Below are positions 17,629 to 28,073 of a stretch of DNA of 38,101 nucleotides, piece by piece (position 1 is the stretch's first letter; each line of letters starts with the position of its first letter). The notes beneath the pieces were generated by a model that was given only the letters and a program-made list of their open reading frames with translations, was not told the DNA's origin and did not search any database. This stretch comes from Oscillospiraceae bacterium (GTDB lineage Bacteria > Bacillota > Clostridia > Oscillospirales > Oscillospiraceae): positions 1-38,101 of the forward strand of contig JAFZDL010000027.1 in assembly GCA_017561205.1 (NCBI GenBank), read 5' to 3'. A program made the translations under genes and the position numbers.

Positions 17629-17811
17629 TTACATTGCACCGTTGGCAAGAGTCTCCACCAACGCGTACATTTCCTCTTCCGAGTGGACATTGTGTGCTTT
17701 GTTCAGAATGTCCCGCTTTTGGGATTCAGATAAATGGGCATAGCGGTTCATAGCCGCGGTGTTAGCCGACAGTGCCAAACCAAAACCAATAGGAACTTGA
17801 TGGAAATCCAT
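17629..17811 (-). CDS. 60-residue protein of unknown function
   Basis: Starts MDFHQVPIGFGLALSANT behind AAGGAG. A short hydrophobic-glycine N-terminus, then a helical charged body (SESQKRDILNKAHNVHSEEEMY). It resembles small proteins common in clostridial genomes, but I know no function. A longer form to 17877 would start within a dispersed repeat and is rejected. Confidence 0.7.
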   Translation of the reverse strand: MDFHQVPIGFGLALSANTAAMNRYAHLSESQKRDILNKAHNVHSEEEMYALVETLANGAM

Positions 17812-17835
17812 AATTTTTCTCCTTTTCAAAAAGTA

Positions 17836-17951
17836 TGTCATTCTGAGCGAGCGTAGCGAGTCGAAGAATCTACGCAATTCTTATCTGGGATGCACACAAT
17901 TGGTGCGAAGATCCTTCGACTCCGGGCATTGCCCTCCGCTCAGGATGACAG
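17836..17951. repeat. Dispersed palindromic repeat, family A, copy 3 (reverse)
   Basis: Opposite orientation to most copies: TGTCATTCTGAGCGAGC ... GAAGATCCTTCGACTCC ... CTCAGGATGACAG. Lies between the 60-residue gene and the spoIVB fragment. Confidence 0.9.
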
Positions 17952-17960
17952 GTGCTGCGG

Positions 17961-18083
17961 TCAGGCAGCTGCGTCTAGCATATTTTCTATAAATATGCCG
18001 TATCCCGTTGTGGGGTCGTTGACGAGAACGTGAGTCACAGCGCCAACCAGCTTGCCGTCTTGGATAATCGGTGAGCCGGACAC
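17961..18083 (-). pseudogene. spoIVB: Displaced 3' end of spoIVB
   Basis: On the minus strand this encodes [20 protein letters not shown] and on to ENMLDAAA and a stop. It matches the C-terminus of the intact SpoIVB at 26919 in 34 of 38 residues while differing at most third codon positions. There is no 5' part: homology ends exactly at the bases GACA (18079-18082), where the intact gene's element-supplied end also begins. Read as the original chromosomal 3' end, cut off when the element inserted. Confidence 0.88.
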
Positions 18084-18105
18084 GAGTGTGTCAATATAGG
18101 ACCAA
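18062..18105. other. Left attachment junction of the element
   Basis: Core GACA at 18079-18082. To its left is spoIVB 3' sequence; to its right the element end, which starts CGAGTGTGTCAATATAGG. GACAC/GTGTC form a short imperfect palindrome, as serine-recombinase sites often do. Confidence 0.75.
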
Positions 18106-18264
18106 CATCTTTTTTAGGAAATTTTATCTGTTTTTGTCGAAAAAACCGCCTAAACAAGCCACTTTTAAGACACACAAACTTATTTTAACCTCAAAATCGA
18201 AAAATTATTGAATGATTGGGGAACTAAAAACAGACGAGTGTGTGATAATAGGACCAACACTCTT
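18081..18264. repeat. Direct repeat of the element end
   Basis: ACGAGTGTGTCAATATAGG... at 18082 and ACGAGTGTGTGATAATAGG... at 18234 agree in 23 of 26 bases, 152 bp apart in direct orientation. The stretch between is AT-rich and non-coding, with one TGTCGAA at 18135. The second copy is not next to spoIVB sequence. Confidence 0.7.
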
Positions 18265-18275
18265 CTACCCTTTAA

Positions 18276-18315
18276 ATACAAATAGCAGCAAGTTCTCACC
18301 TGCTGCTATTTGTAT
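18276..18315 (-). terminator. Terminator of the surface-protein operon
   Basis: A perfect 15-bp stem (18276-18290 with 18301-18315), loop of 10, followed on the minus strand by TTTAAA. 13 bp past the stop. Confidence 0.85.
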
Positions 18316-18327
18316 GGTTCATTATAT

Positions 18328-21300
18328 TTATACAAGAGATTTTTTCTTTTTGAGAACGAGTACAGCCAGGAGAACGTTACCGAGAAGTGCAAGACTCGCA
18401 ATCACAATCGCAACGACTGTAACTGTATCTACACCTTCTGCTTCGGTGACGTTACCGGAGCCTACGGGAATGCTGTCATCTGCGGCAGCTTTCACACCGG
18501 TGTCGGTTTCCCCGATCCACCAATTGCCATTCTCACCGATAAACGGTGTCAGACCGTCCTTACCGTCAGCGCCGTCTTTGCCGTTTTCTCCGTCCTTACC
18601 ATTAGCACCATCCTTACCGTTGGTTACGGTAAATGTATAGGTCTTGCCGTTGGTCAGAGTAACGGTATATGTATCCACATTGCCGTTGGTAGCTGTCTTT
18701 TCGATTTTAGCAATTCCTACGCCGTCAGCGCCGGTATCGCCCTTATCGCCTTTATCACCCTTGATGCCGTTGGCATCTACACCGGTGTCGGTATCACCGA
18801 TCCACCAGTTGCCGTTTGTTCCGATATACGGAATATGACCCTTGGCTGCATCAATGGCTTCCTGCTTGGCCTTTGCGATGGCATCTTCCAGCTCAGTCTT
18901 CAAAGCGGCATCGGCGGCAATATAATTGTCTTTGGCGTTCTGAAGCGCAGTGATGGCATTTTGCAGGTTTGCAATCGCGGCATTTACAGTAGCGGTATCC
19001 GCCTTGTTATCGAGCGCGGCTTGCAGCTCTGCTTTTGCGGCATCTACAAGATCCTTTGCAGCATCCACCGCCTCGTCCTTGGCGGTAATAATGGCTGCAT
19101 TCAAGGTCGTTACCGCACTGTCGGTATATGCCTTAGCGGTAGCTTCTGCCGTTGCAATGGCAGCGTTTAACTCACTGACCTTTGTGTTAAGAGTTCCGAT
19201 GTCTGCCTTACCGTTGATCGCATCTTGAAGCTCTGCCTTTGCATTGTTTACAAGAGCTTCGGCGGCGGAGATCGCAGCGGCCTGCGCGGTGCTGATCTTG
19301 CCCTCAAGCTCGGTTTTCAGAGCCGTATCTTTTTCGTCTGCGTAGGTCTTTGCAGCAGTCTGGGCTGCAGTAATTGCGGCATTAAGCTCACTAACCTTCT
19401 GATTTAAGGTTGCTGTGTCTGCCTTGTTTGCAATTGCCGCATTGAGCGCTGCAACGGCGGCATCCAATTCCTGCTTAGCAGTTTCCAAGGCAGAAACCTT
19501 GCCTTCAAGAACTGCGATTTTGTCCTCGATATCATCTATTCTTGCATTTGCAGCCGCAAGCTCTGCCTCGAGACTCTGAACGGCTAATTTAAGATTGGCA
19601 ATATCAGTGCCCTGTGTACCGGTAAGGGTTTTCAGTGCGTTGATTGCATCCTGCGCCTTGGTTTTCCATGTCTTAAGATCCGCAATATCACTCTTGAGTG
19701 TTCCAACGTCACTTGTGTTGGTGTTAATCTTGCTGTTTGCATCGGCAAGACCTGCCTCAAGGTCTTGCACACGGGTTGTCAGCGCAGCGATCGCAGCATT
19801 GACGGTAGCCGTAGCGGAGTTAATGGCATTCGTCAGTTCTGCCTTTGTTGCGTAATCATTTGTGAGCTTGCTGCTTAAATCGGTAAGTGAAGCGTTGAGC
19901 GTGGCAAGGTCGGCAGTAAGCTGGGCTACCTTGCTTGCATTGGTGGAAATATTACTCTTAGCTGCGGCAAGCTCGCTTTCAAGTGTTTCCACTCTGCTTG
20001 TCAGATCACTTATAGCAGTATGGATAAGATTATCTGCGGTTTCGATTTTGGTATTCAACTCGTTTTTGAGAGCCGTGTCAGCATCCTCATAATCATCAAT
20101 TTGCTCAAGCAAGGTCTGAATATTGGTCTTTGCGGTATTCAAATCAGTAATTGCCTGTGCAAGAGTAGCGGCATCTGCTTTGCCTGCCAAAGCGGAATTT
20201 ACAGCATCAATTTTACCCTGCAGTTCTGCCTTTGCGGCATCGATCTTATTGTTCAACTCCGCTTTATCGTCCTCGTAGTCGGCGAACTTTGCATAGATGG
20301 TGGTAGTAGTGTTGGTGATAGCATCACTGAAATTAAATTCGGTGTAAAACCATTTGTCTTTATACCAACCGACCAAAACCTTGCCTGCAAATACGGGGGT
20401 AGGAGGCGTAACGGTTTCACCGCGCAAAACCGTCTTGGTTTCGCTGCCCAGTGTGCCATAGTCAAAGGTAACGGTGTACTGAAATTTCAGTGCAAGGTTT
20501 TCGCCGTCTACCGCTATACCATAAGTGCTGCTGTCGCTTACAAACTTATCGATATAGGCAGCACCGCCGGTAGTGAAAGTGCCGACGTTATATGATTGCA
20601 TCGTGACACCGATAGATGCATCCTCACAGGTCAGCGCACCTGCCACAGTGACTGTTTTATCGCTTGGCAGAAAGATATTATTGGGGGTGAGATTACCCGC
20701 GGGGCCTTTCGTATTGTCGATAATCTTGCTATTACCGGACAGCTTTAAGGTTCCGTTGTTGTACACACCACCGCCGTCAGAGCCGGCAGTGTTGTCACTT
20801 ACGGTGACATTTTCCATAGTAAAGGTGCCGCCGCCACGGATGTACACACCGCCGCCGTTATTCGTGGCGTCGTTGCCGCTTACGGTGCTGTTTTCCATGG
20901 TGACGGTGCCGTAGCTGTACACACCGCCGCCGTTATTCGTGGCGTCGTTGCCGCTGATGGTGCCGCCATACATAGTGACGGTGCCGCCGTAGTTGTACAC
21001 ACCGCCACCGTCACCATTCGCCCCATACCCGGTAGCGCTGTTATTGCTGATGGTGCCTCCGTACATAGTGAATGTGCCGTTGATGTACACACCGCCGCCG
21101 CCTGTTGAAGAAGTGAAGCCGGAAATAGCACCGTCTGTGCCGCAGTCGGTCAGCACAAAGGTTGCGCCGCTGTTCACTGTAATCGCGCTGCCTGTGAAAC
21201 TATCAGCGGGGCTGATAGTTTTTCCGTTCAGGCAGAGGTAGAGGGTGTAGCCGTTTGCTACGGTCAGCTTGCTGTTGCGCTCTGCATTTGCAGACAGATA

Positions 21301-21594
21301 GACGTACGCCGTCTTGTTCGAATCGTATGGAATGGCATCTGTGCCGTTCCACGCAGTCCACTCTACATCTTTACAATCGGAGTGGACACTCTCCTGCTCA
21401 CCGCAGACACAGTGATTGGTATGAATGCCTGCCGCAAAAACGGCAACGGGCACCATTGCCACAACCAAAGCTGCCGCAACGCAAAGGGCCACTGCCTTCT
21501 TGGGCAGCTTTTTACAACCGATGGCGGCTGACTCTGCCAAGAGCAGCAGAGCGCTCAGCCACAATTTCAATATTTCTTTCCAATTCTTCTTCAT
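18328..21594 (-). CDS. Large modular cell-surface protein (adhesin-like)
   Basis: 1,088 aa. Residues 1-54 form an unusual long secretion signal with two hydrophobic stretches ending VAVFAAG. About 60-330: parallel beta-helix with repeated GGGVYNYGGTVTMYGGTISG-type units. About 355-430: an InlB/Flg_new-like repeat (TVTFDYG...VLVGWYKD). About 435-915: long Ala-rich coiled coil with GKADxxTL heptad blocks. Two GNWWIGxTDTGV modules (928 and 1023) bracket collagen-like GDKGDKGDTGADG and GKDGANGKDGENG runs and a small beta module. 1058-1081: membrane helix, then KKKKSLV. No LPxTG, so membrane-anchored. Role as adhesin or stalk is inferred. Starts 12 bp after the cysteine-rich gene. Confidence 0.85.
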   Translation of the reverse strand: MKKNWKEILKLWLSALLLLAESAAIGCKKLPKKAVALCVAAALVVAMVPVAVFAAGIHTNHCVCGEQESVHSDCKDVEWTAWNGTDAIPYDSNKTAYVYLSANAERNSKLTVANGYTLYLCLNGKTISPADSFTGSAITVNSGATFVLTDCGTDGAISGFTSSTGGGGVYINGTFTMYGGTISNNSATGYGANGDGGGVYNYGGTVTMYGGTISGNDATNNGGGVYSYGTVTMENSTVSGNDATNNGGGVYIRGGGTFTMENVTVSDNTAGSDGGGVYNNGTLKLSGNSKIIDNTKGPAGNLTPNNIFLPSDKTVTVAGALTCEDASIGVTMQSYNVGTFTTGGAAYIDKFVSDSSTYGIAVDGENLALKFQYTVTFDYGTLGSETKTVLRGETVTPPTPVFAGKVLVGWYKDKWFYTEFNFSDAITNTTTTIYAKFADYEDDKAELNNKIDAAKAELQGKIDAVNSALAGKADAATLAQAITDLNTAKTNIQTLLEQIDDYEDADTALKNELNTKIETADNLIHTAISDLTSRVETLESELAAAKSNISTNASKVAQLTADLATLNASLTDLSSKLTNDYATKAELTNAINSATATVNAAIAALTTRVQDLEAGLADANSKINTNTSDVGTLKSDIADLKTWKTKAQDAINALKTLTGTQGTDIANLKLAVQSLEAELAAANARIDDIEDKIAVLEGKVSALETAKQELDAAVAALNAAIANKADTATLNQKVSELNAAITAAQTAAKTYADEKDTALKTELEGKISTAQAAAISAAEALVNNAKAELQDAINGKADIGTLNTKVSELNAAIATAEATAKAYTDSAVTTLNAAIITAKDEAVDAAKDLVDAAKAELQAALDNKADTATVNAAIANLQNAITALQNAKDNYIAADAALKTELEDAIAKAKQEAIDAAKGHIPYIGTNGNWWIGDTDTGVDANGIKGDKGDKGDTGADGVGIAKIEKTATNGNVDTYTVTLTNGKTYTFTVTNGKDGANGKDGENGKDGADGKDGLTPFIGENGNWWIGETDTGVKAAADDSIPVGSGNVTEAEGVDTVTVVAIVIASLALLGNVLLAVLVLKKKKSLV

Positions 21595-21606
21595 AACACT
21601 TACCTC

Positions 21607-21807
21607 TCAATCGTTTGTGCTTAAGGGATACCGACAGATTCCGGTCTTGGGGAGTTTATCACTGTTAAGGTCGTACTTAGCATACTTACAAAACCAACAA
21701 ATTGGTTCTATTGCCAGGATACTTCGCCGTCCCTCAAAACAAGAACAGGTGGTATAACGGGTAATTTCTTTGTCCTTGTACGGACAAGTTTCCTGCGATT
21801 TTTCCAT
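21607..21807 (-). CDS. Small cysteine-rich protein, first gene of the adhesin operon
   Basis: 66 aa starting MEKSQETCPYKDKEITRYT behind AAGGAGAGG. Cysteines fall as C..C-S-C, C-W-F-C and a final C, suggesting a zinc- or disulfide-stabilised knuckle. It has no signal peptide. It is the promoter-proximal gene of the LytTR-type promoter, ending 12 bp before the surface protein, so both are made together. It could help assembly or regulation; I recognise no family. Confidence 0.75.
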   Translation of the reverse strand: MEKSQETCPYKDKEITRYTTCSCFEGRRSILAIEPICWFCKYAKYDLNSDKLPKTGICRYPLSTND

Positions 21808-21837
21808 AGGACCTCTCCTTTGCGACGGGTTTGCTAT

Positions 21838-21866
21838 ATTATAGCAAGCAGACGGTAAAAAGACCG
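21838..21866 (-). promoter_or_regulatory. Activator-type promoter of the adhesin operon
   Basis: Minus strand: perfect -10 TATAAT (21838-21843) but a poor -35 (CGGTCT, 21861-21866, 17-bp spacer). A weak -35 directly next to regulator repeats is typical of activator-dependent promoters. Confidence 0.75.
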
Positions 21867-21868
21867 TT

Positions 21869-21906
21869 TTTGGCGTGATTGGTAGCAAATTTGGCGTGAT
21901 TGGTAG
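21869..21906 (-). promoter_or_regulatory. Tandem LytTR-type operator
   Basis: CTACCAATCACGCCAAA occurs twice in direct orientation (21890-21906 and 21869-21885 on the minus strand), with exactly 21-bp period, the inner copy ending 2 bp from the -35. LytTR regulators (AgrA, ComE, VirR type) bind direct repeats about two helical turns apart just upstream of a weak -35. Confidence 0.78.
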
Positions 21907-21919
21907 GTAAACGCAAAAA

Positions 21920-21945
21920 ATCCCCCGATTTTTACATCGGGGGAT
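21920..21945 (-). terminator. Terminator of the regulator-kinase genes
   Basis: A perfect 10-bp stem ATCCCCCGAT / ATCGGGGGAT with T6 on the minus strand. It separates the kinase gene from the adhesin promoter. Confidence 0.92.
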
Positions 21946-21959
21946 GGCTCAAAAAACGA

Positions 21960-23189
21960 TTAAGATGTAAATGCAACGGTTGCTTTGAACACACCGTTTT
22001 GTGCCGTGAAGCGACAAGTGCCTCCGTATTTTTCTGCGGTGGATACGATGCTGTGAATACCCACACCCCACAGCTCCCGTGGCATATCGGGAACAAACTC
22101 TAAAGACGGATGGCAGGAGTTTTCACAGACGATAACCATTTTCTTGGCTTTATAGTAAATATCTACCGAAATGACAGGCTCGGAAGTTTCTGAACTGGCA
22201 GCGCCGTGGAGCGCATTTTCCACCACATTTGCAAGAATTGCCACAAGGTCGTGAGAGGAAACGGGCGTTTCCTTTCTTGCTGCCGCATTGGCGTTAAAGC
22301 AAATATTTGCAGCTTTTGCTTTTGCCTCATATACACGCAGCACGTTGTTGATGGTTTCATTCTCGCAAAACCTCTGCGGACGCTGACTATCCATTTCTAC
22401 GTTTTGCTTTTCAAGATAACGGATAATGCTATCGAGTTCACCGTTCTTGGCCAAAGCCAATATTGCATCATTATGGTGGCGAATATCGTGATAGCTTTTT
22501 CTTGCCCACATTACTTCGTTTTCCTGTGCCTGTACCCGTGTTTCGAGAAGCTCGGTGTGGATCTGCTTGCGCTTTTCTTTTGCAAGCTCCACCATATCTT
22601 TAAGACTTGAAAACAATGCGGCGTAGGTTACGAAAAACATCGCTGTTGTGGCTATGAAGATTTGAAATCTGCCGTTATCGGTGCGTGTAACACCGTCTAT
22701 GTAAATGGTCTGTGTGGCTATCACCACCAAAAAGGCGATCACGATTGCGTAATACTTGCCAAAGCCTTTATCAATGTATACACTGACCTTCTTAAATTTC
22801 GGAAGAATAAGAACATAGATCAGCACCTGCAAAATTCCCATAATCAAAACCATACATACGATTTTGAGAGCAAGGTGCATTTCCTTTTCAATTATAAAGG
22901 AAGCAAACGCACCGAAAGCCGTATAAATGCTGGCGTAGCTGATAAACAAAAAACCTTTCTCAATCGGCTTGCCTTTGGTTGCAATAAAGAACAATGCGGC
23001 GTTGAGCAGCACCATCAAGGTGTAGTTCAGCTTAGTTGTTGTGGGCGGTAGGATCAAAAACACCACTGCATATACAAGCCATATCAGCGAAGTAACAATT
23101 TTATTATATCTGGGCTTGACGAAGAATATGGACATACCAACATGGGAAAGCACAGACAATATCAGTAAAAGTAATGTAAGAGCGTCCAT
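21960..23189 (-). CDS. AgrC-like sensor histidine kinase (GHKL family)
   Basis: 409 aa. About six membrane helices in the first 200 residues, a coiled linker, then a kinase core with the phosphoacceptor block SYHDIRHHND (His234), NVVENALHG (N box) and a short GVGIHSI (G box). This layout belongs to the AgrC/ComD peptide-sensing class (HATPase_c_5). Starts with ATG two bases past overlap with the stop region of the response-regulator gene, whose last codons hold its GAGGTG site. No signal-peptide or AgrB-like gene is visible nearby, so the signal is unknown. Confidence 0.9.
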   Translation of the reverse strand: MDALTLLLLILSVLSHVGMSIFFVKPRYNKIVTSLIWLVYAVVFLILPPTTTKLNYTLMVLLNAALFFIATKGKPIEKGFLFISYASIYTAFGAFASFIIEKEMHLALKIVCMVLIMGILQVLIYVLILPKFKKVSVYIDKGFGKYYAIVIAFLVVIATQTIYIDGVTRTDNGRFQIFIATTAMFFVTYAALFSSLKDMVELAKEKRKQIHTELLETRVQAQENEVMWARKSYHDIRHHNDAILALAKNGELDSIIRYLEKQNVEMDSQRPQRFCENETINNVLRVYEAKAKAANICFNANAAARKETPVSSHDLVAILANVVENALHGAASSETSEPVISVDIYYKAKKMVIVCENSCHPSLEFVPDMPRELWGVGIHSIVSTAEKYGGTCRFTAQNGVFKATVAFTS

Positions 23190-23193
23190 TTCA

Positions 23194-23913
23194 TCACCTC
23201 ATTCCCAAATAGTCCATATAGGCGTTTTTAAGTGTCGGCATAATTCTTCTTGGAACGGCAAGACATTTGCCGGTTGTCATTTCAACCGTGTCGGAAAGTA
23301 TTTTTTCAATCTGTTCCAAATTGATAATAAAGGTCTTTCCGCAAAGGTAAAATTGCCCGAAGGGAGATAATTTCTCCCAAAGCTCTGCCTGGGAGATGCG
23401 AACCGATGCAGGCTCGCCCTCTGCAAAGCAGATTGTTTGGTTGTGGTTGGCAGACTCACAATAAATGATATTACCAACAGGGATATTATAATATCCGTTT
23501 GCCGTTTTCATCAGCACGGTTTTCGGCTTATCTTGCCCTATGCTGCGCATTGCCTTATCCATCGCAGTAAAAAAATCATCCTTTGTATAAGGCTTCAGTA
23601 GATAATGCGTAGCACTCACTCCAAACGCTTCCACAGCGTGATCACGGGAGGAGGTCAGAAAGATTATGGGACTTTCATCGTTTCTCTGTCGAAGCTCAGT
23701 CGCAACGCTCACACCCGTTACGCCGGGCATATAAACATCCAAGAGGTATATGTCGTAATGCTCGCCTTTATCAAGCATATCTAAAAAATCAGAGGGATTC
23801 TCAAACTGCTCTGCCGAAAAGCGAACATTCCGCAAAGCGGCATATTCCGAGAGAAAAGCTGCGGACGTATCCAAGTATTTTTTCTCATCGTCACATATTG
23901 CAATTTTGAGCAC
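23194..23913 (-). CDS. LytTR-family response regulator (AgrA-like)
   Basis: 239 aa. An intact receiver: D8-D9, Asp59 in IYLLDVYMPG, Thr87 in FLTSS, Lys107 in LLKPY. A LytTR DNA-binding domain follows from about residue 135 (YNIPVGNIIYCES, GQFYLCGKTFIINLEQI, VPRRIMPTLKNAY). Partner of the kinase just downstream. GTG start with GAAGGTGATG. The 21-bp-period repeats at 21869-21906 are its most likely target. Confidence 0.93.
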   Translation of the reverse strand: MLKIAICDDEKKYLDTSAAFLSEYAALRNVRFSAEQFENPSDFLDMLDKGEHYDIYLLDVYMPGVTGVSVATELRQRNDESPIIFLTSSRDHAVEAFGVSATHYLLKPYTKDDFFTAMDKAMRSIGQDKPKTVLMKTANGYYNIPVGNIIYCESANHNQTICFAEGEPASVRISQAELWEKLSPFGQFYLCGKTFIINLEQIEKILSDTVEMTTGKCLAVPRRIMPTLKNAYMDYLGMR

Positions 23914-23956
23914 TACATCACCTTCTTTCTTATAAATCTTTAAAACATAATGTTAA

Positions 23957-25003
23957 TTATTTCAGTCTGATATAACAGGTTGACTTTCCTTTGCCCTCGC
24001 GTTTCAGTTCACCAGATGCTACCATTTTACGAAGAGCTCCTTCTACTGAACTAAGGCTAAGCATCGGGCACAGTTCACGTATATCCTGTTTATTAAAGCG
24101 TCCTATCTTATTCATAGCAGCTTTACGAACCATATCTATAGCAGGAAGTTTTTCTTCAACAATAGCAAATCGATCTCCGAAGTCTTTGTACGCTGCCAGA
24201 ACCGTTCCAAGTAGATATTTAATAAACGGAACAGCATCTTCGATTCCTTCGTGCCAACCATGCTGAGAACGACCAAGCGCATCGTAATACAAATCTTTAT
24301 TCTTAGCAATTTTCGCTTCTAACGAAATGTATTTACCCACAAAGAATCCACTGCGATATAATAGCAACGTAGTAAGCAATCGGCTCATTCTTCCATTTCC
24401 GTCATTAAAGGGATGAATACAGAGGAAGTCATGAATAAAAATCGGTATAGCAATTAAAGGCTCCAATTCCATATTTCCGATAACACGGTTGTATTCATCA
24501 CAAATTTTATCTAATGCCTCAGAGGTTTCAAACGGAGCAAGAGGCGTAAACAAAACCTCTGTATGTCCGTCAGGATAAGTTGCACTAATATAATTCTGTA
24601 CATTCTTTGTCTGTCCGGCCATAGGGTTGTTCATATGGCTATACATGATCTTATGAAGTTGAAGTATATAATTGCGGGACAAAGATATCGCATCAAAACT
24701 TTCATGAATAATCGAGAGCACATCACGATAACCAGCAATTTCTTGCTCATCACGGTTTCTCGGTGTAGTCTTTTCTTCAACTAACTGCTTAATGCGGGTA
24801 TTAGTGGTAACAATACCTTCAATCGCATTGGATGCTTCGGTACTTTGAATTTTTGCAATCTCAACCAACTTTTCCAATTCTTCCGGACGTTGCTTGAGAT
24901 AAAGTTCTTGTTTTCCTGCCTCTTTATATATAGCGGCAATAAGTCCTAAAATCTCAGAATCCCATTTTTGATTCTTAATAACAGAGTAATTAAAAGGTCT
25001 CAT
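23957..25003 (-). CDS. Fic-family AMP-transferase, class II, with C-terminal wHTH
   Basis: 348 aa. The catalytic Fic motif HPFNDGNGRMSR (197-208) is intact. A class II inhibitory motif (S/T)xxxE(G/N) is present as SNAIEG (58-63), so activity should be autoinhibited. The flap region ATYPDGHTEVLFTP is present. C-terminal residues about 285-348 form a winged HTH that could bind DNA. It should transfer AMP (or a related group) to proteins. Its own promoter carries two inverted-repeat operators, consistent with autoregulation. Cargo gene of the element. Confidence 0.92.
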   Translation of the reverse strand: MRPFNYSVIKNQKWDSEILGLIAAIYKEAGKQELYLKQRPEELEKLVEIAKIQSTEASNAIEGIVTTNTRIKQLVEEKTTPRNRDEQEIAGYRDVLSIIHESFDAISLSRNYILQLHKIMYSHMNNPMAGQTKNVQNYISATYPDGHTEVLFTPLAPFETSEALDKICDEYNRVIGNMELEPLIAIPIFIHDFLCIHPFNDGNGRMSRLLTTLLLYRSGFFVGKYISLEAKIAKNKDLYYDALGRSQHGWHEGIEDAVPFIKYLLGTVLAAYKDFGDRFAIVEEKLPAIDMVRKAAMNKIGRFNKQDIRELCPMLSLSSVEGALRKMVASGELKREGKGKSTCYIRLK

Positions 25004-25023
25004 TCCCTTAGCCCCCCTTTTCT

Positions 25024-25061
25024 TTCCCTTATATTATATGCGTTTATAAGGGAATAGTCAA
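25024..25061 (-). promoter_or_regulatory. Fic promoter with embedded operator
   Basis: Minus strand -35 TTGACT (25056-25061), 17-bp spacer, -10 TATAAT (25033-25038). The 10-bp inverted repeat TTCCCTTATA / TATAAGGGAA (25024-25033 and 25045-25054) covers the spacer and -10, so a bound protein would block transcription. Confidence 0.82.
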
Positions 25062-25077
25062 TAGTTTGTTGCAAACT

Positions 25078-25109
25078 TTCCCTTGATACAGTCGCACATT
25101 TAAGGGAAA
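25078..25109. promoter_or_regulatory. Second Fic operator
   Basis: TTTCCCTT (25078-25084 region) and AAGGGAAA (25102-25109) form a further inverted repeat of the same half-site, 16 bases apart, about 17 bp upstream of the -35. Confidence 0.6.
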
Positions 25110-25174
25110 CAACTATTGATTATCCAGCACCTGCTTTCTTATAACTACAAGTTCAGCTTTCAGCGGCACAATAA

Positions 25175-26824
25175 CTATAATTGAATCCCTAAATCATAAA
25201 AGTTGTATTTAATAGCAAACCTTTGACCTTGATGAATTACAATTCTATCCACCATAACCTCAACAAGTTCTCTCGTTATAGCTGGATCTTTTCGATACAT
25301 ACGGAACTGCTTGATCCACGCCTCGATACTATCGTTTTTTCTGTCCATGACCTTCATCACTTCGATAAGCTCATCTTCTTTTTCGGTAAGTTCAAAATAT
25401 ACTTTTCTGTGTTCTGTCGAAAATGCCTTAAATTCCTCTCTGGTAATTTTCTCATCCACATATTTCTCATACATCTCTCTAAGCGCTTCGTTCTTTTCCT
25501 CGCGTTCGGTTTGAATGTCAAGAATAGCTTTTCTTACCTTTCTAAGCTCCGTTCGATGAGGTTCGTACACGTTTTTTCTGTATGCATCAGAAAGAATCCT
25601 ATCGGCATACTTGTTAAGTGCCGCTTTTAATTCAGCGACAATTATTTCCTCACGAATGTAATGACTGCAGCATTGACGGTTTGCACGGTAATTTCCGCAC
25701 TCATAATAAATAAAGTTTGGTGACTGAGAATTTTCATGCGAAAGTCCCTTGGTAGCAATCATCGCCTTACCACAATCACCACAGAATAATTTACCGCGCA
25801 GCATAACACGATAATCATTTTCAACAGCAGCACGTGTATTTCTGTTGGCGAGTTTTTTGTTTTCCTCTTCATTGACGTGCTGTACCTTGTTATACAACTC
25901 TTCTGTCACAATTGCAGGATGTGCATTTTCTATAATAACCCAGCAATCACGGTCAGTCCTTGTCTTCGGAAGGTCAATGCCGGCTTTCATCTTTCTTCCG
26001 TGAACTCTATGTCCGATATAACAAATATCTGTAAGCATTTTACGCACCGTTGTCCTATTCCATAATGCGTCCTTATATTTCTCATCCGTTGTGAAGCCAC
26101 GTAGATAACGTAGTTTACCTGGGCTTGGAATCCCTTCAGCATTGAGCTTATTTGTGATTACAGCTATCTTAGCGCCTTCAGATCGCATTTCATAAATCTT
26201 CACAACAATATCTGCGGTTTCTTTATCGACAATATATGAGTTGAGTTGCGCTGCCCTCAAGTAACCATAAGGTATGCTACTTGCAGAAGGAAGATACTCA
26301 CCACTATGTATTTTTGCATCTATCGTTGACTTAACATTCTTCGATATATCATGAGATACTTGATCATCAAAAACTGTCTGTATAAGCAAAGAAACCTTCG
26401 GCATTCCAGCCTCATCGTTGATACTGTCATAATCATTATTTATGCTCACAAAACGTACCCCCATTTCAGCAAATATTTTAGTCAGCAATTCGCCGACTTC
26501 TTTATAATTTCTTCCCATACGGGAAACGTCTTTTACTACGACACAGTTGATAATTCCGTTTCTAAGGTCTTCCATCATTTCAATGAAGCCTGGCCTATTA
26601 TAATTTCTTCCTGTGTAACCATCGTCAATATATGTTTTTACGTATACAAAGTTTGGACAAAATTCAATATGCTTATTCGCTATTGCAATTTGATTAAGTA
26701 TTGAATCACTTACAACATCGTCTCCGTCTGCTTCCGATAACCGTGCATAAATACCAACTCTTACCGAAGGTTCCGTAAAAGAAACTAATTTATTGTTCTC
26801 CGGATATCTGCTCTTTCTAGCCAT
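25175..26824 (-). CDS. Large serine recombinase (TnpX/integrase type)
   Basis: 549 aa. N-terminal resolvase domain with catalytic Ser30 in YARLSEADGD and VVKDVSRMGRNY, then the Recombinase domain (YLRGFTTDEKYKDALWNRTTVRKMLTD), a zinc ribbon (CGDCGK ... CGNYRANRQCC) about residue 360-400, a coiled coil and a DUF4368-like C-terminus. Such proteins integrate elements site-specifically between attP and attB using a 2-bp crossover. It lies next to the right junction and is the likely agent of the spoIVB insertion. AT-rich codon use. Confidence 0.95.
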   Translation of the reverse strand: MARKSRYPENNKLVSFTEPSVRVGIYARLSEADGDDVVSDSILNQIAIANKHIEFCPNFVYVKTYIDDGYTGRNYNRPGFIEMMEDLRNGIINCVVVKDVSRMGRNYKEVGELLTKIFAEMGVRFVSINNDYDSINDEAGMPKVSLLIQTVFDDQVSHDISKNVKSTIDAKIHSGEYLPSASSIPYGYLRAAQLNSYIVDKETADIVVKIYEMRSEGAKIAVITNKLNAEGIPSPGKLRYLRGFTTDEKYKDALWNRTTVRKMLTDICYIGHRVHGRKMKAGIDLPKTRTDRDCWVIIENAHPAIVTEELYNKVQHVNEEENKKLANRNTRAAVENDYRVMLRGKLFCGDCGKAMIATKGLSHENSQSPNFIYYECGNYRANRQCCSHYIREEIIVAELKAALNKYADRILSDAYRKNVYEPHRTELRKVRKAILDIQTEREEKNEALREMYEKYVDEKITREEFKAFSTEHRKVYFELTEKEDELIEVMKVMDRKNDSIEAWIKQFRMYRKDPAITRELVEVMVDRIVIHQGQRFAIKYNFYDLGIQL

Positions 26825-26879
26825 TTTGTTCTACCTCCTAAGAAAATTATTTTGATTGTTATACTATTTGGGATAAAGT

Positions 26880-26913
26880 AAAGGTGCCGAAATCTCTTGA
26901 CTTCGACACCTTT
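26880..26913. terminator. Hairpin between spoIVB and the recombinase gene
   Basis: A 12-bp stem with one mismatch (26880-26891 with 26902-26913). The T6 tail is on the plus strand; on the minus strand, where spoIVB ends, the following sequence is only TTTACTTTA, so read-through from spoIVB into the recombinase is possible. Confidence 0.65.
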
Positions 26914-26918
26914 TTTGC

Positions 26919-27920
26919 TTATGATGCGTCTTTCTTTGCTTGTTCTTCTGCTACCTGATTTGCCGTCTCCAGCATGTTTTCAATAAAGATACCATATCCC
27001 CTTGTTGGATCGTTCACAAGCACATGTGTGACGGCTCCAACGAGCTTTCCATTCTGGATTATTGGAGACCCCGACATGCCCTGGACAATGCCGCCGGTGG
27101 TGTTAAGAAGTCCAGAATCCGTGATTCGCAGGAGCATATTCCGCCCGGCTTCTCCTGCGTTGGGATAAACCTTCAAAATCTCCACAGAATATTCCCGGGT
27201 GCTTTCGCCGTCCACTGTGGAAAGAATGGTTGCCGGCCCGGCTTTTACATCTGCCGCAGTGCCCACCGGCAAAGATTCCCCTGTCCAGCCGGTATTGGCT
27301 GTGCCGAATACACCCCGGTTGGTATTTTTATATAAAGTACCGATAGGTGTTGCCTCTTTCAGCGCACCCATAAGCTGTCCCGGCGCGCCGCATTCCCCTT
27401 TGCGCACCGATGCCACCGCAGCCCTATAGGCAGACCCGGACACCATATTCAGCAGCTCACCCCGGGAATTGTTCACCCCGTGACCCAAGGTGCCGAATTT
27501 TTTGCTGTCCGGGTCATACCATGTGACCGTGCCCACGCCGGTAACGCCCTGCTTGAGATACACACCTAATTTAGGGCCCTCGGGCGTCACCGTGGGCTCA
27601 ATCCGCAAAGTATCGGATTTTTTGTTTCGCTGAACAGCCAGCTCCACCGGGCCGTCGGCTCTGTTCAAAGCAAACCGCACATCTTCCGCGTTTTGTATAG
27701 CCTGCCCGTTCACCGACACAATCCGGTCGCCCACCTGCAAGCCCGCTTTTCTGGCTGCCTGGCCTAATTTTTCATCAAAAGATGCTACCGTCACCGTGTT
27801 GTCCGCCAGCTCCAACCCCACAACCTGGCCCACGGGAATGAGCATTTGCGCCGCATCAGCGGTCACTGTTAAACAAAAAACCAGCGCAATCGCTATTATA
27901 TAATGAATCAGTCGTTTCAT
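26919..27920 (-). CDS. spoIVB: SpoIVB peptidase, rebuilt by the element's 3' end
   Basis: Forespore-secreted serine peptidase that triggers pro-sigma-K processing. 333 aa: signal/anchor 1-23, PDZ about 36-100, peptidase domain with His147 (TLGHGV), Asp268 (RITDSG) and Ser283/285 in GMSGSP. All catalytic parts are present. ATG at 27918-27920 follows AAGGAGGG. Codons after Met282 are AT-richer and differ from the orphan fragment at 17961 although the protein is nearly the same: that part comes from the element. So the catalytic serine is element-encoded. Shorter than the 426-aa B. subtilis protein. Confidence 0.93.
   Translation of the reverse strand: MKRLIHYIIAIALVFCLTVTADAAQMLIPVGQVVGLELADNTVTVASFDEKLGQAARKAGLQVGDRIVSVNGQAIQNAEDVRFALNRADGPVELAVQRNKKSDTLRIEPTVTPEGPKLGVYLKQGVTGVGTVTWYDPDSKKFGTLGHGVNNSRGELLNMVSGSAYRAAVASVRKGECGAPGQLMGALKEATPIGTLYKNTNRGVFGTANTGWTGESLPVGTAADVKAGPATILSTVDGESTREYSVEILKVYPNAGEAGRNMLLRITDSGLLNTTGGIVQGMSGSPIIQNGKLVGAVTHVLVNDPTRGYGIFIENMLETANQVAEEQAKKDAS
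27057..27095. other. Right attachment junction of the element
   Basis: Core GACA at 27073-27076 within the GMS codons of spoIVB. Left of it is element-supplied spoIVB end; right of it is native spoIVB sequence (TGCCCTGGACAATGCC). Confidence 0.75.
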
Positions 27921-27956: not shown

Positions 27957-28073
27957 TGTCATCCTGAGCGCAGCAATAAAATTGCGAAGTCGAAGGATCT
28001 TTGCACCAAACGCTTGCTGAGTAATCCGGCTGTGCGTAGATTCTTCGACTCGCTACGCTCGCTCAGAATGACA
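27957..28073. repeat. Dispersed palindromic repeat, family A, copy 4
   Basis: TGTCATCCTGAGCGCAG ... GAAGTCGAAGGATCTTTGC ... GCGTAGATTCTTCGACTCG ... AGAATGACA. Lies between divergent spoIVB and nifS; with the promoter at 28179 it fills the 330-base gap. Confidence 0.9.

Follow-up and report, generated by a model that had tools for sequence, protein, structure and literature searches.

Stacked cassettes at the active-site codons of the sporulation gene spoIVB in gut Clostridia and a candidate role for large serine recombinases

The spoIVB locus and its element

The stretch of DNA analyzed here (38,101 nucleotides of contig JAFZDL010000027.1 from an Oscillospiraceae bacterium, hereafter the window) harbors an intact spoIVB gene and, separated from it by an 8,994-bp element, a second copy of the end of that gene. 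The intact gene (26919-27920, minus strand) encodes both the S55 and the PDZ domain of SpoIVB, the former matching Pfam Peptidase_S55 over profile positions 4-210 of 210 (E 5.6e-73), and its frame is open, i.e., the host gene is not disrupted by the element. The second copy is an orphan 3' end (match at 17961-18083, minus strand; 85% to residues 282-321, E 3.8e-16) and is the sole second SpoIVB match within the window's assembly at E 1e-3. An earlier reading made from the letters of the window (the sequence-only reading) had described two near-identical C-termini written in different codons, and had proposed that an 8,994-bp element with a serine recombinase beside its right end was inserted in spoIVB and exchanged the end of the gene. 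The agreement of the two ends (34 of 38 residues, with differing codons) is seen again in the sequences, the junction-to-junction length was recomputed as 8,994 bp, and the Resolvase, Recombinase and zinc ribbon domains of the 549-residue protein encoded directly after spoIVB confirm that it is a large serine recombinase (LSR). This reading of an insertion with an end swap is supported, but the window turns out to be one case of a widespread pattern. We propose, at a probability of roughly 0.84, that the pattern reflects an LSR-driven, gene-restoring cassette system that would land in spoIVB, with a layout like that of integrons, a recombinase like that of the cassette chromosome SCC, and a mobility that we infer from sequence comparison.

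The empty site predicted by the sequence-only reading can be rebuilt by joining position 27077 onward to 18082 downward, which gives an open frame reading GMSGSP...ENMLDAAA that aligns unbroken to the spoIVB 3' region of the related genome G051 (73.3% over 442 bp), followed by the same 82-residue flank gene (73.2% over 190 bp). In G051 this flank gene directly follows spoIVB, i.e., the site is empty. In G060, to which the rejoined flanks align at 86.7% over 443 bp, a different 3.4-kb insert stands before the flank gene. The end that the intact gene now bears (its last 156 bp) has a GC content of 44.8% and a GC content at third codon positions (GC3) of 40.4%, compared with 55.2% and 59.9% for the spoIVB body and 52.9% and 55.0% for the orphan. 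The element as a whole has a GC content of 44.0%, with a GC3 of 34% in its LSR and 53% in its putative surface protein. This element-like composition, together with the rejoining of the outer flanks into an open frame, supports the earlier proposal that the element brings its own spoIVB end and with it the codon of the catalytic serine, and suggests that the last 156 bp of the gene are element-borne. Counted from that serine, the swapped end encodes 51 residues and the orphan 39, the intact gene ending 12 residues later. This C-terminal extension is present in none of the 15 other genes of the genus in loci L062-L125, and extended ends (...KEAS/KEAG) occur in six other loci from metagenome-assembled genomes (MAGs; L158, L171, L182, L212, L252 and L284). 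The highest-scoring DNA match of the swapped end is to L158, from another MAG (79% over 159 bp), and the source of this end is probably another lineage.

The crossover point

The GMSGSP stretch of spoIVB, named as the attB by the sequence-only reading, does appear to be the site of exchange, and comparison of the junctions places the joint at the TG of its ATG codon, i.e., the Met codon before the catalytic serine. The same reading had ended the homology between the two copies at GACA. This tetranucleotide does stand at both ends (18079-18082 and 27073-27076), but the core common to the junctions is just TG. Among 152 junctions the preceding base is G in 115, A in 24, C in 12 and T in 1, and the bases after TG follow whichever serine codon is used (AGC/AGT in 85 junctions, TCN in 65, other in 2), which argues for a 2-bp core, TG, apparently fixed by the single Met codon. 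The GACA at the window junction would then be partly an accident of codons. A study of Bacillus subtilis SpoIVB reports use of an S378A variant and places a Thr393-His-Val395 motif (PMC6581720). Counting back from Thr393 through SGSPIIQNGKxxGAVTHV (15 residues) makes Ser378 the first serine after the Met, and the exchanged segment thus appears to include both the catalytic serine and the THV motif.

On its other side the orphan junction is preceded by an arm, here called P1, of the approximate form TGTTGTCC..TTGACA.... placed directly before TG, and related arms are found in 15 aligned junctions. The outer arm, TGTTG..CC, lies at a fixed distance from TG in 125 full arms (conservation 0.91 at T-25, 0.96 at T-23, 0.98 at T-22, 0.91 at G-21 and 0.90 at C-18), even though the pattern from which these arms were taken (the second pattern below) required TGACA and not the outer arm.

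Recurrence of the junction among genomes

A protein search of 61 genomes of the genus, which used no site pattern, returned 27 small C-terminal SpoIVB fragments. Seventeen of these, in 13 genomes, begin at residue 281-282, and they lie downstream of an intact spoIVB on the same strand wherever both are on one contig. An arm pattern written from 15 aligned junctions was found at 36 sites in 26 of 136 genomes of the genus, with 16 of the 26 outside the genomes from which it was written, and in 13 of 394 genomes of the order (the window's own and 12 others), in 12 genera. The reversed pattern, a control for chance, had no match in the 136 genus and 394 order genomes. A second pattern matched at least 118 stretches in a collection of named genomes, and the titles among the matches listed include Oscillospiraceae, Lachnospiraceae, unplaced Clostridia MAGs, Blautia, Roseburia, Tyzzerella, Robinsoniella and Acetatifactor, as well as Eubacterium sp. 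14-2, Fusibacillus kribbianus and Faecalicatena contorta ET55. Among cultured commensals, Fusibacillus kribbianus YH-rum2234 and Lachnospiraceae bacterium MGB1 have both an intact spoIVB and an orphan, and an orphan junction is present in Faecalicatena contorta ET55. The genus, order and named-genome sets overlap, and frequencies are taken from the protein search and from the genus and order scans. The array loci described below were mostly picked by patterns that demand TG and SGSP, the second pattern also demanding TGACA shortly before. Two counts from these loci (none of 152 sites falling in an intact frame, and 188 of 222 orphans whose alignment starts at position 1-2) are partly built into the patterns and are not used as proof, because such patterns nearly exclude intact genes and fix the start of the orphan. 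On the sequences compared, insertion at one exact codon of spoIVB appears to be a widespread pattern that is common in gut Clostridia. The sequence-only reading held that relatives lacking the 18-27 kb block and still carrying both the fragment and the intact end would speak against it. Several such relatives exist, yet they do not refute it because they hold other inserts at the same junction; the site has therefore been hit repeatedly.

Stacked cassettes and their cargo

In 56 loci (63 minus the seven duplicates L191, L226, L260, L281, L282, L286 and L287) an intact spoIVB, defined by sequence as a long open frame reading GG..GM into SGSP, is accompanied by one to four orphan ends, and 19 of these loci have more than one. 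Median interval length, over 80 intervals, is 1,471 bp, and 60 are no longer than 3 kb; one of the 80, of 7 bp, is a frame break inside a single orphan. Comparison of the loci shows that a unit has three parts, namely a spoIVB 3' end (the catalytic serine plus about 39 codons, often with a terminator-like hairpin after it), the cargo and the P1 arm. One such end continues the frame of the resident spoIVB body, and the remaining ends are orphans downstream of it, every one of them preceded by a P1 arm. Terminator-like hairpins were scored after 30 of the 61 intact ends and 70 of the 161 orphan ends; the corresponding figures are 27 for 594 random stretches and 267 for 1,679 other open reading frame (ORF) ends. 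The cargo may therefore be protected from transcription that comes from spoIVB. Under the same rule, the orphan end of the window was negative for a terminator-like hairpin.

Across 79 intervals there are 201 ORFs with a length of 75 residues or more, and 149 of them are oriented like spoIVB. The cargo is very mixed: the 101 proteins scanned (out of 123 selected from the 201) matched 83 Pfam families, few of them by more than two proteins, with helix-turn-helix (HTH), Fic (4), barnase-type ribonuclease (3) and Schlafen AlbA (3) families leading. PADLOC matches are mostly to HTH, Fic and candidate models and are the basis for no claim about defence.

Units appear to be shared between hosts. A whole cassette is common to G083 and MAG RGIG7280 (L236), in which 845 and 843 bp, starting 22 bp before the core, align at 82.6%, while the two spoIVB bodies give no blastn match. 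The cargo of L237 and L283 agrees at 94.6% over 1,288 bp, with bodies that are likewise unaligned, and L258 and L285 share 891 bp at 88%, their bodies agreeing at 67%. Two orphans of G079 have the C-terminal extension of the window type, as expected of units that were formerly the end of the gene and were later displaced.

Recombinases of the LSR2 group and three-LSR elements

Some elements carry three tandem LSRs (a trio) adjoining the P1 arm, and the three Pfam domains of the window LSR are also found in the trio of G532 and in the LSR of G090. The tree pairs the window LSR with that of G090 as sisters (99/97) and places both with the nine middle LSRs of the trios (LSR2). A branch with support of 85/100 sets this group of 11, accompanied by two very long outliers, apart from the remaining 34 rows, under midpoint rooting only. 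A protein search started from LSR2 found relatives with high scores in G164 (48% identity), G407, G443, L301, L302, L303 and L307. A spoIVB 3' end lies beside the LSR(s) in six of these seven; the seventh, L303, ends inside the gene. Of the six, L301 matches a stretch of Eubacterium sp. 14-2 at 100% identity over 10.5 kb and G407 was already a pattern match, which leaves four new loci (G164, G443, L302 and L307). G164 repeats the layout of the window, i.e., an intact spoIVB and then a single LSR2 up to the end of the contig. Matches to the LSR2 query at about 27-32% identity come from plasmids, phages and two genus genomes. The LSRs of G033 and G053 (22% identity), which lie near spoIVB remnants, fall outside the LSR2 group and were not used.

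Six genomes with trio elements have a split gene: spoIVB is cut after GGIVQGM (GGIIQGM in two), a second arm follows (usually GTGAGTTATAATAGGGACAACA), and the remainder of the gene is found elsewhere, at a distance of 108 kb in Eubacterium sp. 14-2 and on a separate contig in the five other genomes. Eubacterium sp. 14-2 (L269/L270) has both arms on a single contig, and its rebuilt attP is a near-palindrome around TG, i.e., a classical LSR attP. Second arms are visible in the five other trio genomes, and the symmetric attP was rebuilt for this one element only. The window element has the P1 half only, its other half being a spoIVB end. The predicted circle junction of the Eubacterium sp. 14-2 element reads TTGACA-N17-TATAAT, a perfect consensus promoter that is split by integration and would exist only in the circle. 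We initially took the 108-kb insert for a prophage, and dropped this assignment when Pfam gave TraG and type IV secretion system (T4SS) coupling-protein domains (44 of 70 listed ORFs scanned, first 25 families taken); the insert is therefore at least partly like an integrative and conjugative element. A pattern for a free attP (P1-TG-P2, with P2 the second arm) had no match in viral contigs. Among six stretches from the viral scan, L146, L148 and L150 carry an LSR trio and a spoIVB end, and L145, L147 and L149 were set aside as chance matches, their records having no SpoIVB match.

Proposed mechanism and alternative explanations

In the scheme that we propose, the attB in spoIVB consists of two half-sites around the core, B1-TG-B2, and an ordinary element with the site P1-TG-P2 would split the gene. 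A cassette would carry P1-TG-B2', and its recombination with attB would give B1-TG-B2', a whole gene with the site renewed, and P1-TG-B2, an orphan. Insertion would thus join the spoIVB body to the 3' end that the unit brings, the former end becoming an orphan. As this incoming end encodes SGSP... once more, the gene would read through and an attB-like site would be restored, so that later units could stack between spoIVB and earlier units. Such a scheme would explain the start of the orphans, the stacks, and the displaced ends of element type. Given a circle with P1-TG-B2 and a gene with B1-TG-B2, exchange at TG could also excise or reshuffle units. Catalysis would be carried out by LSR2-type recombinases, i.e., those of the window element, G090 and G532, probably that of G164, and the middle gene of the trios, and most cassettes, which have no recombinase, would move in trans. 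The cassettes may derive from canonical P1-TG-P2 elements by swapping the P2 half for a captured spoIVB end. We also lean, with considerably less assurance than for the cassette system itself, towards a broader picture of a serine-recombinase integron in Clostridia, in which an active-site codon stretch serves as the site, each cassette brings a working C-terminus and renews the site, selection for sporulation polices the joins, LSR2 units and trio elements mobilize recombinase-less cassettes, and a promoter forms at the circle junction of at least one trio element (Eubacterium sp. 14-2).

Several observations weigh against the proposed system. Movement is read from sequence comparison; a P1-B2 hybrid departs from the canonical attP of LSRs; and exchange between attB and attL is poorly catalysed by ordinary LSRs. 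Recombinases are also scarce: just 3 of the 80 intervals (window, G090 and G532) contain an LSR ORF, most arrays having no visible recombinase, LSR2 relatives of at least 38% identity occur in only 3 of the 136 genus genomes (E 1e-80), and G062, with three orphans and 92% completeness, has no match to the window LSR at E 1e-3. With most units lacking an LSR and LSR2 relatives this rare, movement in trans or in the past must therefore be assumed. The P1 arms fall into several families and more than one recombinase specificity is thus probably involved. Ten of the 27 fragments begin at residues 290-301, as decayed or interrupted ends would, and do not show the junction, and most of the genomes are MAGs on short contigs. 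Finally, G532, which has a trio and an intact gene, does not fit the split-gene picture: a 12.7-kb unit lies behind the intact gene, its trio is 99% identical to that of Eubacterium sp. 14-2, and the first 129 bp of its two 3' ends, counted from the ATG, are identical. Gene conversion could cause this identity, and either capture of the resident end or conversion with it is therefore possible.

The identical ends of G532, and the very similar ends of G045, terminator included, are what would be expected if orphans were copies of the spoIVB 3' end, made by tandem duplication or by gene conversion, that later decayed. Most of the end pairs compared differ in their codons, however, and the 17 fragments that begin at one codon do so behind a conserved arm that is absent from the intact genes compared, variable starts being confined to the 10 later-starting fragments; we regard this origin as extremely unlikely. 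The window taken alone is fully explained by a single, ordinary LSR integration that carries a replacement gene end, as phage 21 and e14 do in icd, with nothing array-like about it. Such an integration is insufficient for the stacked loci, which have one to four orphan ends (more than one in 19 of the 56 loci) and mostly no recombinase, and for the element-type ends that occur as orphans in G079, and as a general account it is very unlikely.

The enzyme could also be a different one, e.g., a tyrosine recombinase acting in trans, with the LSRs as passengers. Most arrays lack an LSR, short inverted repeats of the GACA/TGTC type can be seen by eye in the P1 arms, and array-bearing genomes had no systematic search for other recombinases; against this, LSR2 kin that were found independently of the site adjoin a spoIVB 3' end in all six loci with a flank, four of them new, and the near-palindromic attP of Eubacterium sp. 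14-2 is as expected of LSRs, which makes another enzyme quite unlikely. The split spoIVB of the six trio-type genomes, with its end elsewhere, raises a further alternative, in which elements split the gene and are excised during sporulation to rebuild it, like skin, SPbeta and gin, the last of which likewise has three serine recombinases (PMC5595907). Excision would be unneeded in the window and 55 other array loci, where the frame is already open, and as SpoIVB acts in the forespore, it would presumably strip the element from the spore genome. We give this timed rearrangement hardly any weight and retain the gene-restoring cassette system as the preferred explanation.

Relation to known systems

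In integrons and clusters of attC sites lacking integron-integrases (CALINs), cassettes are stacked at one site and most stacks have no integrase. The spoIVB loci are similar in that they contain arrays of single- or few-gene cassettes at one site, a criterion for integrons, with a site that would be renewed per insertion and a mixed cargo (HTH, Fic, barnase-type ribonuclease). They differ in having LSR kin instead of the tyrosine recombinase IntI, and in that the recombination site is itself a coding 3' end; none of the six ORFs scanned in the window element encodes a tyrosine integrase, the recombinase found being an LSR. Phage 21 and e14 in icd and islands at tRNA sites also supply a substitute host-gene 3' end, but they use tyrosine recombinases and are not known to form stacks of small cassettes.

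SCCmec and Enterococcus cassette chromosome (ECC) elements are described as having large serine recombinases (CcrAB), insertion in the 3' region of the conserved gene rlmH, variable cargo and composite SCC islands (PMC6222049, PMC5595907). The spoIVB system shares with them the LSRs, a target in the 3' part of a conserved gene of the host and the highly variable cargo; it differs in its site (spoIVB, not rlmH), in the size of its units (mostly below 3 kb, compared with at least 21 kb for ECC), in that each unit replaces about 39 codons including that of the catalytic residue, and in that most units have no recombinase. Intervening elements of sporulation genes (skin, SPbeta, vfbin, gin and yin) likewise use serine recombinases that insert in sporulation genes. 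Unlike elements of the skin or gin type, the window element leaves its gene open, disruption being found instead in the six trio-type genomes; as regards the class of target, it is the trio elements that are similar to skin and gin. The spoIVB system lacks a defining feature of each family with which it was compared. A term search found no mention of spoIVB in the main texts of PMC5595907 and PMC10747680, and a literature search gave no account of insertion in spoIVB among its best-ranked matches; preprints and most subscription journals lay outside its scope, and priority is unproven.

If the proposed system is real, it would represent a second route to mobile cassette stacks, independent of integrons with tyrosine integrases, and would show that the active site of a protein may serve as a safe landing pad when the insert supplies a matching gene end. 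SpoIVB would be a patchwork protein whose catalytic end may pass between lineages, and a large set of odd gene fragments behind spoIVB would be accounted for. For those who engineer LSRs, the LSR2 group would offer a family with a natural attB in a coding sequence common to many species, and the three-LSR elements pose the question of which recombinase reads which half-site.

Features of the window locus and side observations

Table 1. Features of the spoIVB locus in the window, from the spoIVB body to the far flank (composition values are given in the text).
Feature	Positions	Strand	Basis
spoIVB body with half-site B1 at its 3' edge, host DNA	27077..27920	-	G060 closest among the loci compared, 88.8% over 419 bp; GC and GC3
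Crossover at gene end, A-TG-TC; core is the TG of the Met codon before the catalytic Ser	27073..27078	-	Sequence, junction comparison
Putative element-borne spoIVB 3' end, SGSPIIQNG...ETANQVAEEQAKKDAS	26919..27074	-	GC3 lower than in body; C-terminal extension
Terminator-like hairpin behind swapped end	26876..26912	-	Simple hairpin plus T-run rule positive; limits by eye
Large serine recombinase, 549 residues, groups with trio LSR2	25175..26824	-	PF00239, PF07508, PF13408; tree
Fic/DOC family protein	23957..25003	-	PF02661, E 2.6e-17
LytTR response regulator	23194..23913	-	PF00072, PF04397
GHKL histidine kinase	21960..23189	-	PF14501
Coiled-coil/collagen-like protein, 1088 residues, hydrophobic C-terminus; putative surface protein	18328..21594	-	PF09479 above cut-off, Collagen below cut-off
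P1 arm of element attachment site, TGTTGGTCCTATATTGACACACTCG on minus strand	18083..18107	-	Sequence; constant spacing of the arm consensus from TG
Orphan host spoIVB 3' end, SGSPIIQDG...ENMLDAAA	17961..18082	-	Protein match, empty-site comparison
Host flank gene, 82 residues, marks flank of empty site	17629..17877	-	Aligned in G051 and G060; directly after spoIVB in G051

The 82-residue flank gene matched no Pfam family. A second, imperfect copy of the P1 arm (GAGTGTTGGTCCTATTATCACACACTCGTC; 18233-18265, minus strand) lies about 150 bp inside the element with no spoIVB end after it (by eye), and is maybe an old junction or an extra recombinase site. In L122 (at two sites), L202, L180, L081 and L121, a related stretch that starts GAGCGATGCGACCG breaks up an orphan end after SGSPIIQDG. 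This interruption occurs at the same place in different genomes and in none of 68 intact frames, and in L122, L180 and L202 the spoIVB sequence resumes about 100-110 bp past it. The inserts of G041 (L063) and G049 (L070) both carry a trio of CotH, VTC-domain and DUF4956 genes. In L069 and L070 (G040 and G049) the flank gene stands directly after the intact gene and before the orphans, as if the incoming unit had brought a piece of another strain's chromosome. Similar palindromic repeats of the TTCGACTCGCTACGCTCGCTCAGAATGACA type (by eye) lie on both sides of the spoIVB region of the window, at 17829-17960 and 27960-28070.

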